Shown piece after piece: positions 29,981-35,501 of a stretch of DNA of 64,000 nt; position 1 is the stretch's first letter; each line of letters begins with the position of its first letter. The DNA lies in the NCBI RefSeq assembly GCF_019740355.2, contig NZ_CP091819.1, forward strand, positions 1,860,001 to 1,924,000, written 5' to 3'. Both the position numbers and the translations under genes were made by a program. The DNA is from Paracrocinitomix mangrovi (GTDB taxonomy: Bacteria > Bacteroidota > Bacteroidia > Flavobacteriales_D > Crocinitomicaceae). Under the pieces are notes generated by a model. It searched no databases, had not been told where the DNA came from, and was given only the letters and a program-made list of their open reading frames with translations.

Positions 29981-31060
29981 TTATTGAACAACTAATTTAC
30001 TGGTAGAAACAGTATTTTGCTGATCAACTTTAATTAGATAAATTCCTTTATCCCAATTAGTTGTGTTTATTTTTAATTGATTTGAAGTGGGTACAACATT
30101 ATAAATCATACTTCCTTTTGCATCAAATATTTCAATTTTCTCAGCCACATTGTCTGTACTAATAGTTACAAACTCTGCTGTAGGATTTGGATATACACTG
30201 AAATTAATAGCATTTTCCTGTACTGAAGCAAAATCCCTCTTTTTATCCTTGAATTTAACTTCCGTTATAGTCTCTGTTCCTGCAATATCGGTTGTAGTGA
30301 TAGAAAAAATTGGAATTTTCTGACCATTGGTAAACCAATGATATTCTACTCTATCCGGAGTTGGTAAAGCATAAGTTCCGCCTAAAAACCCAACATAAAT
30401 AGAATCTTGAGAAGTTAAATGAGATCTAACTCTTAAGGCATCAAAAGAACCAAAAGGAGTAATAACTGTACCCCATCCATCTACATTTGAATTTCTGATT
30501 TGATATCTGGTATAAATTGCATCAAAAGCCGGATTCAAATCCACTTCAATATATGAAGGAGATGTCCAGGCATCACTATAATTCATTGGAAGTTCATATT
30601 GGATGTCAATTGTATCTGCCGGTCCCGGGATTCCTTGTCCTTGAATATAAAATCCAATTCCGGTATTTTTTACTTGATTACTTAATACAGCTGTAAATTG
30701 AACTGGACTTTCAATTCCAATTCCAAATTGCCCTAATTGAGACAAGCCACCTCCAAACCATGGAGTATAATAGTCAGACTCATGCTCTGGATAAAACCAA
30801 GCATTGTTAAATACTGCTTGATACAAAGCTGCTGAACCTGCTACAGAATGAAAAGTATCAATTGTTTGTGTAGGAATATTAATGGTAGAAAAATCCCAAA
30901 CAACGTCTGCTCCTGTTGTTACAAAATCTAAAGAAGTTTCATCTGAAGTACTCACCATTACTGTGTCATTAGCAGCAGCAAAATCAGCACTAGTAATAGT
31001 AATTTGGGCATAACTCATTCCTGAAATCAGCAATGCAGTACAAAGTAAAATTTTATTCAT
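29981..31060 (-). CDS. Secreted protein with T9SS type A sorting domain
   Basis: 359 residues. Signal peptide MNKILLCTALLISGMSYAQ, a beta-rich body I do not recognise, and a type A T9SS signal from about residue 290 (FSVYPNPTAEFVTIS to WDKGIYLIKVDQQ). It follows the lipoprotein gene by nine bases and is the last gene of a sigma / anti-sigma-barrel / lipoprotein / cargo string, so it may be an output or ligand of that regulatory module. Confidence 0.82.
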   Translation of the reverse strand: MNKILLCTALLISGMSYAQITITSADFAAANDTVMVSTSDETSLDFVTTGADVVWDFSTINIPTQTIDTFHSVAGSAALYQAVFNNAWFYPEHESDYYTPWFGGGLSQLGQFGIGIESPVQFTAVLSNQVKNTGIGFYIQGQGIPGPADTIDIQYELPMNYSDAWTSPSYIEVDLNPAFDAIYTRYQIRNSNVDGWGTVITPFGSFDALRVRSHLTSQDSIYVGFLGGTYALPTPDRVEYHWFTNGQKIPIFSITTTDIAGTETITEVKFKDKKRDFASVQENAINFSVYPNPTAEFVTISTDNVAEKIEIFDAKGSMIYNVVPTSNQLKINTTNWDKGIYLIKVDQQNTVSTSKLVVQ

Positions 31061-31069
31061 GGTTTTAGT

Positions 31070-32131
31070 TTATTGCAGTCCAACATTAAATGTCCCTGAC
31101 ATTGAACTCAAAGATAGTGTTTCTGTTTCACCTTCTGTCGCTAATAATGCGTCAAAATAGAAATCAAAAACAACCCTTGTTGGAGTTCCTGCATTTGAAG
31201 AAATATATTCAATATCGCTTACGTTAAAGTTACCATTGTAAATATTCCATGGAGTATTTTCAGATTTAAATTCAACTCCGTCTTTAACTACAGTAACTTT
31301 TACTTTTCCATAATTGGATTGATTGTTTGTTCCACCTGAACACTGATTTAGTTTCATTTGCCAATCAAAGACAAAATCAATAATTCTAATCAATGAAGTA
31401 CTAGAGGATTCATTCATGTACTCATCTCTTATGACGTGCTCAACTTTGTGAATTCCGATTGGCATTGTAGTGATAGTTTGAAACCCACTTCCTATATAAT
31501 TTCCATCAACATACCAATCGTGTGTGTACTCATTCAAATTAGCCGTAAGCACCACTGAATCTTGTAAGGCAGATGCAGTAAAATCTGAATTCAATGAATT
31601 ATTGTGATATCCATAATTTACAGGAACAGTAATTGTATTTTGACCTACGTCCGTAAACTTAAATGATACATCATAAATCCCGTACTCATCAAATTCCAAC
31701 TGATTAGCTTGTTCAAAAACGCCCTGCTGATTTTGAATCATTAAAAAGTTTCCTTGCGTTAAATTTCCTCCAAATGATGGAGCAAGGCAGCCTTCTTGCT
31801 GAAGCATATAACTGATGTTTCCGTTATTCATCAGATTAATACCATTGCTAGATTTGAGTTGTTCTGGTTGAGTAAATTCAATTTTAAGCAATAAATCATC
31901 ATTAACAGATATCAACTGTCCATAATAAGTTTTGATACCATTTTCAACGTTTACTCCTTGCGAAATATGTATCCCTTCCTGATCAACATTCATTTCTACA
32001 AAATTACCGTCAATATTTCCTTTGATGGAATAGTATGGTGGTGATGCAGGTGGCAAATCAGGTAATGGCTCTTTTTTACAAGCAACTAGCCCTAACACAA
32101 TTCCTAATATGTACAATTTACCTTTACCCAT
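31070..32131 (-). CDS. Lipoprotein of the sigma/barrel operon
   Basis: 353 residues. Lipobox GLVAC with acylated Cys18, then a Pro-rich spacer (PLPDLPPASPP) and a beta-rich body with a PKD-like stretch in the middle (ANLNEYTHDWYVDGNYIG). I recognise no enzyme family. Its start shares a base with the stop of the barrel-anti-sigma gene. Position and lipidation make it a candidate outer-membrane partner of the barrel. Confidence 0.72.
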   Translation of the reverse strand: MGKGKLYILGIVLGLVACKKEPLPDLPPASPPYYSIKGNIDGNFVEMNVDQEGIHISQGVNVENGIKTYYGQLISVNDDLLLKIEFTQPEQLKSSNGINLMNNGNISYMLQQEGCLAPSFGGNLTQGNFLMIQNQQGVFEQANQLEFDEYGIYDVSFKFTDVGQNTITVPVNYGYHNNSLNSDFTASALQDSVVLTANLNEYTHDWYVDGNYIGSGFQTITTMPIGIHKVEHVIRDEYMNESSSTSLIRIIDFVFDWQMKLNQCSGGTNNQSNYGKVKVTVVKDGVEFKSENTPWNIYNGNFNVSDIEYISSNAGTPTRVVFDFYFDALLATEGETETLSLSSMSGTFNVGLQ

Positions 32132-33702
32132 TATTTCTTCACTGTAAACAAGTTATATTTTACACCCATCATCAAACTGATATCTCTATCTGCCAGTTTG
32201 TTCAGCATAATACTGTTTACTGTTTTATCAAATACTCCAATACTAGTGTTGGCTTGCAACGTAAATCTATTTGATATTTCATATTCATATCCAACACCCA
32301 ATTTCATATCCCAGTTATTTAAACCATCTCTAACACCCCAGTTATTATTAATTGTATTAATCTTTCCTGTTGGTTCATTCACATAAGACATATTAGATTT
32401 TACTGCAGTTAAATATTCAACTCCTGCTCCAAAGCTCAATTTGTGATAAGGCGCAATTCTTACACCCACAGTTAGATTAAGATTAGTAAACACCATATCT
32501 TTCAACTGCCATTGTCTCCAATACTTATGTGTTCCGTAAGCATCTGAAACAGTTTGTCTTTGAACGGTTCCTAAAGCATTTTGACGAACATGATACACCA
32601 TCAAATTACCACCAAAATCAACATCAGGTAATACTTTACTATGAGAAACAGTATACTCAATTCCGGCTCCATTTCTCATGGTTGGCATATAACTAAAATC
32701 TCCCCATTTATTTCCTATACCTGATCTGGCAAAAGCCGATACACTGTGTCTCCACATTGGTTTTTTAGGCACAAGTTCGATTTCAGGAATTGGTCTTGCG
32801 TAACCCAATTGTAAAATTTGTGTCTTTGCTCCCGGCACAGCATGAATAGTTGTGTTTTGACTTTCATTTTTAGACAAGTCTTCTGCTCTATTTTCAATTC
32901 CTAAAGCAAAATTCACCTCTGAAGGATTTACACTACCTTCAACAGCACCTGTAGCAGACACATCAACAACAGTTGAATTATCAATTACTGTTTGATGAGC
33001 ATAGTCCTCATTGCTTAAGGTTGAATTATTCAACTGATTTGCCATATCATTAGCATTCAAATCACCCAGATTCACCATATCCTTAGACTCTAAGGTGATT
33101 TGACCTAATTTTTGAGGAGAATCCACTTTATTTGAAGCATGCATAGCATTTACTTCAGATAAAGGAGTAGTAGTGAATTGTCCTCCAAACGACAACAATA
33201 GCAAGATAGCTGCAACCGCAGACCATCTTGTAAAGAATATTTTTCTATCAGATTTATCCAGTAACTTCTTAGCTTCTTGCCAGTATGCGCTATCATACTC
33301 GTAATGCAAACCTTCATCTTGTAAGGCAACATCTGCATCTGACCAATACTCAGGAAGATAATCAACTACTGTAGCAGCAGCAGCTTCATTAAAAGCATCA
33401 TCCATCAATAAGTCACCTTCTTTCTTCATGAAATCTTCAAAGAAAGAAGCATTGTAATCAGCCGTTTGGTTGGCAGAAGCATCTACAAAAGCACTGTCCA
33501 TAAACATATCATCAATGCCTTCTGTTTGACTAAAATCAGGAATAGCCACTGCATTATTTGCAGCAGCTCTGAATGCGTCATCCAGATTAGCATCATCCAG
33601 TTTAGCTTTAGCTTCATCCCAAAACGAAGGATTGTAAGAAACTTCAAATTCCTCACTCATTCGCTTGAAAGCATCATCCATATGTTTATTTTCCTCAGCC
33701 AT
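32131..33702 (-). CDS. Dual-membrane-spanning anti-sigma factor (Dma-like): cytoplasmic repeats, TM helix, outer-membrane barrel
   Basis: 523 residues with no N-terminal signal peptide. Residues 1-150 carry regular repeats: MDDAF or variants at residues 8, 40, 68 and 100, and Y-x-x-x-[FW]-[FW] motifs at 23, 83, 115 and 136. A transmembrane helix lies at about 160-174. Residues 175-300 look disordered. From about 300 to the end are alternating beta strands of outer-membrane barrel type (SFGAGVEYLTAVKSN, DMKLGVGYEYEI, LMMGVKYNLF). It overlaps the sigma gene upstream by eight bases. This matches dual-membrane-spanning anti-sigma factors (Dma) described in Bacteroides. Anti-sigma activity is inferred from position and architecture. 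Confidence 0.78.
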   Translation of the reverse strand: MAEENKHMDDAFKRMSEEFEVSYNPSFWDEAKAKLDDANLDDAFRAAANNAVAIPDFSQTEGIDDMFMDSAFVDASANQTADYNASFFEDFMKKEGDLLMDDAFNEAAAATVVDYLPEYWSDADVALQDEGLHYEYDSAYWQEAKKLLDKSDRKIFFTRWSAVAAILLLLSFGGQFTTTPLSEVNAMHASNKVDSPQKLGQITLESKDMVNLGDLNANDMANQLNNSTLSNEDYAHQTVIDNSTVVDVSATGAVEGSVNPSEVNFALGIENRAEDLSKNESQNTTIHAVPGAKTQILQLGYARPIPEIELVPKKPMWRHSVSAFARSGIGNKWGDFSYMPTMRNGAGIEYTVSHSKVLPDVDFGGNLMVYHVRQNALGTVQRQTVSDAYGTHKYWRQWQLKDMVFTNLNLTVGVRIAPYHKLSFGAGVEYLTAVKSNMSYVNEPTGKINTINNNWGVRDGLNNWDMKLGVGYEYEISNRFTLQANTSIGVFDKTVNSIMLNKLADRDISLMMGVKYNLFTVKK

Positions 33703-34279
33703 TCTCGTAGCCCCAAAGCTCTGTATTTTCTGATTTATTCAATTTAACAACCATTTCACGTAACAACTTTCTCGCATTAGATAAATGCCATTTAGATGTT
33801 CCGTCTGAGATATCAAGCATATCTCCAATTTCTTTATGTGAGTATCCGTCAATCACGTATAGGTTAAACACTTTTCTGGATACATCCGGCAACCTTTTAA
33901 GTAATCCCATTAAAATATCCATCTCCAGTTTTGACCATACACCGTTATCAACACTCAAACCATGTATCTCCAATTCGCGATCAGTTTCTTTTTGATCAAC
34001 CAATTGCATGTAATTTTTATTTTTTCTGAATTCGTCTATGATGGTGTTCATCATAATTCTTCGCACCCAAGCTTCAAAAGGAGTTCCTTCTTTAAGCTTG
34101 TCTAGATTTTTACAGATTTTAACGAATCCCAGATTCAAAACATTTCGAGCGTCTTCCTCGTTCTTGTGATAACGCATACACGTGGGCATCAACTTAACGT
34201 AGGCCCATTCATATAGCTTCTCTTGCGAACGGCGGTCGTTTTTTCTACAACCTTCTATGACTTTTTGCTCGTCAAACAT
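33695..34279 (-). CDS. ECF-type RNA polymerase sigma factor
   Basis: 194 residues. Region 2 contains ACMRYHKNEEDARNVLNLGFVKICKNL-type sequence (about 35-60) and FEAWVRRIMMNTIIDEFRKNK (about 68-88). Region 4 is LPDVSRKVFNLYVIDGYSHKEI followed by DISDGTSKWHLSNARKLL. The stop codon lies inside the barrel-anti-sigma gene that follows, a typical coupled pair. A terminator-like hairpin sits in its leader. Confidence 0.93.
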   Translation of the reverse strand: MFDEQKVIEGCRKNDRRSQEKLYEWAYVKLMPTCMRYHKNEEDARNVLNLGFVKICKNLDKLKEGTPFEAWVRRIMMNTIIDEFRKNKNYMQLVDQKETDRELEIHGLSVDNGVWSKLEMDILMGLLKRLPDVSRKVFNLYVIDGYSHKEIGDMLDISDGTSKWHLSNARKLLREMVVKLNKSENTELWGYENG

Positions 34280-34301
34280 TTGTTTCTTTTTCTGAAAAAA
34301 T

Positions 34302-34333
34302 GACCGACCCTATAATACAGAGAAGGGTCGGTC
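34302..34333 (-). promoter_or_regulatory. Terminator-like hairpin in the leader of the ECF sigma gene
   Basis: GACCGACCCT (34302-34311) and AGGGTCGGTC (34324-34333) form a perfect 10-bp stem with a 12-base loop. On the minus strand it is followed directly by ATTTTTTCAG, a U-tract, then the sigma start codon 22 bases after the stem. No minus-strand gene lies upstream, so it is best read as an attenuator in the leader rather than a normal gene terminator. Confidence 0.65.
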
Positions 34334-34452
34334 TGAATAAGTAGTTTTATTCACTTTATCACAGTAAACCCAAAAAACCATGATAAACATTTTTCATACA
34401 TAATAACGAGAATAGTTAACTTAGGGTTGGAAAAAAATCAATTTTTTTAAAA

Positions 34453-34938
34453 ATGTTGCATTTGTATTTGTTGAGACATGGAAAAGCTGCTAACCCGGCT
34501 AGTTATGATGTGGATTATGACCGTCCTTTAAATAAGAAAGGAATTGCCCAAATTAATCAAATTGGATTCCGCTTAAAACAGGATAATTTAATTCCTCACC
34601 AAATCATCAGTTCATCTGCAAAAAGAACAGAAGAAACCACAGCCACTGTAAATCATTACTTAGAAATCGGAGACATCACTTTTTTAAAAGAACTCTACCT
34701 TGCTAAGGACGAAGTGATTTTACACCACCTGGTTAAAAATGCCGAGAAAAAAGAGATTTTATATGTGGGACACAACTTTGGAATCTCAAATATAGCTTCA
34801 TACTTCTCAGGCGAAACAATTAGCATGTCCACCGGAATGCTGGTTCATTTTACGTTTGAAGTTGACAAGTGGGAGCACGTTGGTAAAGATTCAGGAATAG
34901 TAAAAGACATTTATATACCAGACGTATTTATTCCATAG
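34453..34938 (+). CDS. SixA-like histidine phosphatase
   Basis: 161-residue member of the histidine phosphatase (RHG) superfamily. [10 protein letters not shown] (4-13) carries the catalytic [15 protein letters not shown] the conserved Arg, and [12 protein letters not shown] the second His. In E. coli, SixA dephosphorylates phosphohistidine of HPt or PTS proteins. No HPt partner lies nearby, so the substrate is unknown. Its TAG overlaps the GTG start of ruvC. Confidence 0.85.
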
Positions 34939-35501
34939 TGAAAAAGACGGATAAAATCATATTAGGAATTGATCCTGGAACTGTAGTTATGGGTTATGGT
35001 CTAATCCACGTAAAGGGAAAGGAGATGGTAATGTTAAACTATGGCATTTTACAACTAAGTAAATTAAAAACACAACCTGAAAAGCTGAAAAGAATTTTTG
35101 ATCGAGTAGATCAATTAATTGCTGAATATAAGCCTGATGAGATGGCAATTGAAGCTCCGTTTTTTGGAAAAAATGTTCAATCCATGTTAAAATTGGGGAG
35201 AGCACAAGGTGTAGCCATAGCTGCAGCATTGAATAGAAATATTCCTATTGAAGAATACACACCAAAAAAAATCAAACAGTCAATTACCGGATCCGGAAAC
35301 GCAAGTAAAGAACAAGTAGCCCATATGCTTCAAAGATTACTTGGGTTAAAGGAAATACCAAAATATTTGGATGCAACGGACGGTTTAGCCGCAGCGGTTT
35401 GCCACCATTTTCAAGGAGGTATTGGAGAAAATAATAAAAGTAAATCAGGTAGCTGGAAAGGATTTTTATCGGATAATCCTCAAAGGCTTAAAAACAACTA
35501 A
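34938..35501 (+). CDS. ruvC: Holliday junction endonuclease RuvC
   Basis: Resolves Holliday junctions in homologous recombination. 187 residues with the RNase H-fold acidic residues: [25 protein letters not shown], and the C-terminal [15 protein letters not shown]. The start GTG overlaps the stop of the SixA-like gene by one base. Its TAA overlaps the TAG of the convergent HIT gene in CTAA. ruvA and ruvB are not in the window. Confidence 0.95.

Follow-up and report, generated by a model that had tools for sequence, protein, structure and literature searches.

Introduction

Dual-membrane-spanning anti-sigma factors (Dma) have been described among Bacteroidota and are laid out as an N-terminal sigma-binding part, a transmembrane (TM) helix, a disordered tether and a C-terminal barrel (PMC13088901). 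Dma1–Dma3 of Bacteroides thetaiotaomicron work with the Das sigma factors, which belong to the extracytoplasmic function (ECF) group ECF21; when dma2 is deleted, its own operon is strongly induced, and the vesicle phenotype of the deletion requires das2 (PMC13088901). The idea that one chain can signal across both membranes is recent and has been studied mainly in Bacteroides. At the short end of anti-sigma design stands CnrY, a class II factor of Cupriavidus metallidurans, whose first helix binds sigma4 and whose second binds sigma2 (PMC7406223). Because only 6% of Bacteroidetes ECF sigma factors have a class I anti-sigma domain nearby (PMC7406223), another short anti-sigma class is expected in this phylum. 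Here we analysed a 64,000-nucleotide stretch of the 4.37-Mb genome of Paracrocinitomix mangrovi (contig NZ_CP091819.1, positions 1,860,001 to 1,924,000; hereafter the window), in which a four-gene run on the minus strand, headed by an ECF sigma gene, encodes a Dma-like protein of 523 residues. The cytosolic part of this protein appears to be an array of copies of a sigma-facing motif that most relatives carry once, and the operon is preceded by a structured RNA leader.

Results

A motif that is single in relatives forms an array in the cytosolic part

We collected 80 named loci together with the sigma alignment and read the gene after the sigma gene in each. Most of them had the same plan as the window protein, but their cytosolic part was one two-helix unit of ~35 residues that ended at the TM helix. 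The pattern of this unit, taken from 52 sigma-adjacent single-copy sequences, is (I/L)D-x-LF ... (F/Y)-x4-W-x6-L. When a hidden Markov model (HMM) of the motif, built from the units of single-copy relatives, was run on the window protein, it matched five times (residues 6–36, 36–51, 71–92, 101–123 and 134–154), with scores that summed to 50 bits, whereas the best of 2000 shuffles reached no more than 14.3. The spacing within a unit, D-3-F-11-Y-5-W-7-L, was identical to that of the single-copy proteins (compared with L044, which is the same locus as L009).

The array consists of three more or less complete units and two half units; the coordinates given here and below are window positions, and all features of the module lie on the minus strand. 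Unit 1 (residues 6–36; 33595..33687) is complete, with D9, F12, Y23, W28 and L35, and scored 13.7 bits. Motif HMM and conservation together delimited the next three: unit 2 (residues 37–51; 33550..33594) has the first half only (D41, F44), unit 3 (residues 68–92; 33427..33501) is nearly complete (D69, F72, Y83 and F/W88), and unit 4 (residues 99–129; 33316..33408) is complete (D101, F104, Y115, W120, L127). Unit 5 (residues 134–150; 33253..33303) has the second half only (Y136, W141, L148) and gave the best HMM score, 19.7 bits. Two helices were predicted for each complete unit by AlphaFold2 (AF2).

The 19 key motif positions were near-invariant in 14 orthologues, with a mean entropy of 0.10 bit compared with 1.50 for the remaining positions. 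Such a low entropy was reached by none of 100,000 random position sets, and a shift of the positions by 1–6 residues abolished the effect, so that each unit, the half units included, must be under selection. The possibility that the repeats are an artefact or arose by chance was ruled out by the shuffles and by the conservation in 14 loci. A first-pass annotation of this DNA had reported cytoplasmic repeats, which are indeed present, but had not recognised them as copies of the sigma-facing motif that is single in relatives. We infer from sequence that the array is a multiplication of the anti-sigma motif, with the units as putative sigma-binding elements.

The adjacent sigma factor is unusually conserved

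The window sigma factor is 79–93% identical to the sigmas of array-clade relatives. Within the 78–82% bin of RuvC identity, pairs of sigmas averaged 83% identity in the array clade versus 57% in the single-copy modules of this family, and the identity ranges of the two groups did not overlap. This unusual conservation fits a sigma factor that has to satisfy several different motif copies. The window sigma passed the general ECF cut-off TIGR02937 and was below all subfamily cut-offs shown.

One chain from the cytosol to the outer membrane

The layout proposed in the first-pass annotation held up throughout, and all four elements of the Dma plan were seen in the sequence and the AF2 model. The protein (32131..33702; open reading frame, hydropathy, AF2) lacks a signal peptide, and its sole hydrophobic peak (residues 155–173) has basic residues on its N-terminal side; the positive-inside pattern would place the motif part in the cytosol. 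Residues 1–158 are strongly acidic (net −25). The AF2 model, built with a 46-sequence alignment, had helices between residues 4 and 150 in the cytosolic part and a helix at residues 153–174, which agrees with the single TM helix first placed near 160–174 and assigned here to residues 155–176 (33175..33240). The predicted local distance difference test (pLDDT) score was below 50 over residues 177–295 and 297–301, and the disordered stretch of about 125 residues noted before is accordingly delimited as a periplasmic tether of 125 residues (177–301; 32800..33174). If extended, this tether would be long enough for crossing the periplasm.

The C-terminal half (residues 315–523; 32134..32760) had been described by eye as barrel-like, and a structure prediction of the full protein had been suggested as the check. 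AF2 gave a beta-barrel at residues 317–522, mostly with pLDDT 90–98, and structural comparison with VIA-align matched it to NspA, OmpA, OprF, PagL and OmpW with Z 15–17 (17.3 for NspA/OmpA); a match to OMP_b-brl_2 fell below the Pfam cut-off. The C-terminal half is therefore predicted to be an 8-stranded outer-membrane barrel of the OmpA/NspA type and not a soluble domain; a soluble periplasmic fold, which did not appear in the model, was ruled out by AF2 and the fold comparison. No credible sequence relatives of the anti-sigma protein were found in the PDB.

Arrays arose separately several times

The profile of a single unit plus TM helix matched 107 of 395 Bacteroidota genomes, and in all 30 loci read phylum-wide, one from each of 30 matched genomes, there was one motif copy. 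An array query at E<=0.001 matched only this genome among the 395 Bacteroidota sampled, indicating that this array is clade-specific; it was found only in a Crocinitomix-like clade. Other arrays exist elsewhere. Fluviicola XM-24bin1 (L033) has four complete tandem copies and, by its strongly supported place in the sigma tree, is nested among relatives with one copy, another Flavobacteriales (L054) has a separate array of two copies, and two paralogues in the genome of P. mangrovi itself carry two copies (L114) and four copies of a diverged type with AP-x3-W (L113). Relatives of the latter, L120–L125, appear to carry two to four copies (four in L120); for L113 and L120 the profile picked up only some of the copies, and the others were recognised by eye from the recurring pattern. 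As judged from these sequences, arrays arose separately, several times.

The paralogues themselves vary in design. L113:1572-3053(-), at about G000:C1:2244571-2246052, is a second Dma-like protein of the genome, with a GTG start and the four tandem diverged units. In L112:2413-3525(-), at about G000:C1:2739412-2740524, the anti-sigma motif, a TM helix and a linker follow an ECF sigma gene, and L114:2088-3497(-), at about G000:C1:4287087-4288496, has the same plan with its two motif copies at the N-terminus. Both end in one or more PKD domains and a type B (CHU_C) sorting domain of the type IX secretion system (T9SS) with no barrel, and so look like anti-sigma factors with a type IX export signal at the far end. 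Another locus of the same genome, L115:845-2827(+), has an ECF sigma gene followed by a protein that begins with an anti-sigma-like N-terminus, continues with a TM helix and ends in a VWA/YfbK region. In the sigma tree, L052 (CP034120.1, titled Glaciecola amylolytica THG-3.7) groups with Fluviicola although its title is that of a gammaproteobacterium, and this record is probably mislabelled.

The operon has a conserved ECF-type promoter

The upstream region, which contains a promoter and an RNA leader, had been overlooked in the earlier reading of the module. Alignment of 14 array-clade loci revealed an ECF-type promoter, CCAACCCTAAGTTAACTATTCTCGTT (CCAACC-N16-CGTT; 34405..34430), upstream of the sigma gene. 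The form CCAACCCTAA..CGT is common to all 14, and CCAACC-N16-CGTT or a similar site also precedes the sigma gene in ~20 single-copy Crocinitomicaceae modules. Since the promoter is conserved upstream of sigma, this footprinting makes autoregulation of the operon well supported, and the presumed autoregulation is in line with the finding that the dma2 operon is strongly induced on deletion of dma2 (PMC13088901).

A promoter-like site that recurred between genomes was discarded, as it lay inside a conserved open reading frame in both loci checked. Another ECF sigma gene (L181) has a CCAACC-N16-CGTT site ~220 bases upstream, at G000:C1:802916-802941(-), which is possibly a cross-talk site or the promoter of that sigma itself.

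A structured RNA leader precedes the sigma gene

Between the promoter and the sigma ATG, a leader of ~95 nt was delimited at 34294..34391 by a match to our covariance model R1. Hairpin 1 (34355..34387) is a covarying stem; it is followed by a near-invariant stretch, ACTACTTATTCA (34334..34345), that is unpaired or weakly paired, and then by hairpin 2 with a U-run (34295..34333), in which the covarying stem GACCGACCC/GGGTCGGTC and the U-run resemble an intrinsic terminator. In the window the U-run ends 15 bases 5' of the sigma ATG. Two-sided changes were seen in 15 of 21 predicted pairs, with both stems covarying, and 98.4% of leader cells were paired, compared with 84.3% in shuffles and 26–53% in slid structures. 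The covariation score was beyond all 500 shuffles, and the fold had a z of −4.6.

Of 200 Crocinitomicaceae genomes, 16 gave a match to the covariance model, always as a single copy. Array proteins follow the leader in the loci oriented so that the next gene could be read, including two further lineages (L208 and L209), and the leader was seen only in the array clade. Comparison with Rfam gave sub-threshold matches only, with no family at the gathering cut-off. A leader peptide was rejected because the reading frame, as read by eye, is broken in L012, L013 and L023.

Gene order and downstream genes

The module has its nearest named relatives in Crocinitomix and in a Crocinitomicaceae metagenome-assembled genome. 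The first gene encodes the sigma factor (194 residues; 33695..34279), in which sigma-70 regions 2 and 4 are present (Pfam Sigma70_r2, 7e-9; r4_2, 4e-12), as expected for the ECF gene first noted before the anti-sigma gene; the two reading frames overlap by 8 bases. The lipoprotein and the T9SS cargo that had been pointed out downstream proved to be conserved members of the operon in relatives. The third gene (31070..32131) encodes the lipoprotein, with an ACKKE lipobox, and follows the anti-sigma gene in most relatives examined. Its AF2 model is all-beta with pLDDT 93; no clear PDB match was found for the fold, Foldseek giving weak matches to Ig-like or SGBP-like proteins, and the window lipoprotein matched no Pfam family at cut-off. 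The fourth gene (29981..31060) encodes a T9SS-exported protein with a type A sorting domain (Por_Secre_tail, 54.3 bits, over the cut-off; Pfam 1.7e-14), and a homologue lies 3' of the lipoprotein gene in most intact Crocinitomicaceae loci. Divergently upstream of sigma, a sixA-like phosphatase gene and an adjoining ruvC (window 34453-35501) are present in 13 of 13 array-clade loci; sixA-like sequence was also seen by eye upstream in several single-copy relatives.

Discussion

How the module may work

We propose that every unit of the motif acts as a short anti-sigma element of two helices, with a design like that of class II factors such as CnrY, and that it would clamp sigma in a similar way, one helix taking sigma4 and the next taking sigma2. 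In ordinary members the single unit would hold one sigma, and with an array one receptor would hold several sigma molecules, or one with avidity. The barrel would sense a change at the outer membrane or surface, and the tether would relay it by pull or proteolysis so that sigma is released. Released sigma would fire its own promoter, CCAACC-N16-CGTT, producing the leader RNA with its terminator, and read-through past the terminator would yield the operon of sigma, anti-sigma, lipoprotein and T9SS cargo. Multiplied sites together with positive autoregulation would then give a higher threshold and a sharper and larger burst. We assign a probability of about 0.6 to this reading, namely a Dma-like module of sigma and anti-sigma factor, multiplied in its sigma-facing domain, that acts through several sigmas or avidity, with tether-relayed release and an autoregulated burst. 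The wider proposal, that a tandem array on one two-membrane receptor stores and releases several sigmas, has arisen repeatedly in Crocinitomicaceae and is coupled here to a sigma-driven structured RNA, is more tentative, and we would put it somewhat short of even odds.

Several points weigh against the proposed module. Even if the array sequesters several sigmas, its capacity may be below four, since in the window protein there are two half units and unit 3 is degenerate. AF2 gave the array region pLDDT values of only ~60–80, with gaps below 50, so that the tertiary arrangement of the array is not readable from the model. A fixed regulon could equally explain the slow evolution of sigma, and the sigma divergence of the single-copy group may be inflated by comparisons between paralogues. 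No regulon beyond the own operon stood out: the extended form of the promoter occurs once in the genome, at its own operon, and the short form was at chance level in six genomes, so that a separate regulon was rejected on the basis of the promoter. Proteolytic or mechanical release of sigma is put forward as a proposal only.

The motif copies themselves can be read in other ways. One sigma might wrap several units, with first helices on sigma4 and second helices on sigma2, in which case the array would raise affinity or slow release and leave capacity as it is. The four first halves and four second halves, some of which stand outside tandem pairs (A1B1 A2 A3B3 A4B4 B5), suit such an arrangement, and the half units are as strictly conserved as the complete ones; however, the four complete tandem units of L033 are what would be expected of several separate sites, and we consider the wrapping unlikely. 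Somewhat more doubtful still is a hub that coordinates several regulons, in which the cognate sigma is bound by a single unit, probably unit 5 next to the TM helix, or unit 1, and the remaining units bind other ECF sigmas of the same cell. The genome has 22 places that match the sigma profile, the units have drifted apart in sequence and are scored unequally by the HMM, and crosstalk between Dma systems was suggested in Bacteroides (PMC13088901). The unusual conservation of the adjacent sigma in the array clade, however, fits several contacts with that one sigma, and the copies in the independent array of L033 are closely similar. Finally, the repeats could be a structural spacer or a degradation handle unrelated to sigma binding. 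Sigma binding is deduced from sequence and AF2 confidence over the array is low, but the near-invariant motif residues, with a spacing equal to that of the lone cytosolic motif in sigma-adjacent relatives, make this very improbable.

For the leader, the choice lies between a cis attenuator and a sigma-dependent, trans-acting small RNA that ends at the terminator, with the operon transcribed by read-through. Its own ECF-type promoter, the two covarying hairpins, the U-run and the near-invariant ACTACTTATTCA are all features that such a small RNA would have. Sites complementary to ACTACTTATTCA were, however, not in excess in the genome (64, allowing up to 1 mismatch, versus 71 for the control), and a cis attenuator accounts equally well for the terminator; the small RNA is thus a serious candidate that we regard as slightly the less probable of the two.

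Significance

We found no report of tandem anti-sigma elements, or of such a structured leader, in the open-licence literature. Since the Dma family has been described among Bacteroidota, occurrence outside Bacteroides is not itself new; the novelty lies in the structured leader and in the multiplication of the sigma-facing motif. With this motif reduced to a legible pattern of residues that recurs across the phylum, and with its copy number varied naturally several times, stoichiometry and point mutants offer a direct test of how sigma is held and released. Should the array store several sigmas, it would be a simple genetic means of setting both the threshold of an envelope response and the size of its burst, with the covarying leader RNA as a second layer of control.

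Comparison with known systems

The C-terminal domain shares its predicted fold with the 8-strand barrels of OmpA, NspA and OprF, at only ~10–16% identity, and the window chain has no peptidoglycan-binding domain of the OmpA type. In FecR/FecA cell-surface signalling, an outer-membrane event is likewise relayed to an ECF sigma, but receptor and anti-sigma factor are separate proteins, whereas the window protein has both ends in one chain. CnrY has a short two-helix cytosolic element as well, a likeness of design only; it has one such element in place of an array and, to our knowledge, is without an outer-membrane part.

The closest counterpart is the Dma family. The domain order, the adjacent sigma gene and a downstream gene of unknown function are the same, and so is an autoregulated operon, established by RNA-seq in Bacteroides and deduced here from promoter conservation. 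The window protein probably works like Dma, and formal membership of the family is likely as judged from the match in layout. In Dma3 the sigma factor is fused to the N-terminus, whereas in the window module it is separate. The module further differs in its multiplied cytosolic motif and structured RNA leader, in the conserved lipoprotein and T9SS cargo of its operon, and in its host, a member of the Crocinitomicaceae.

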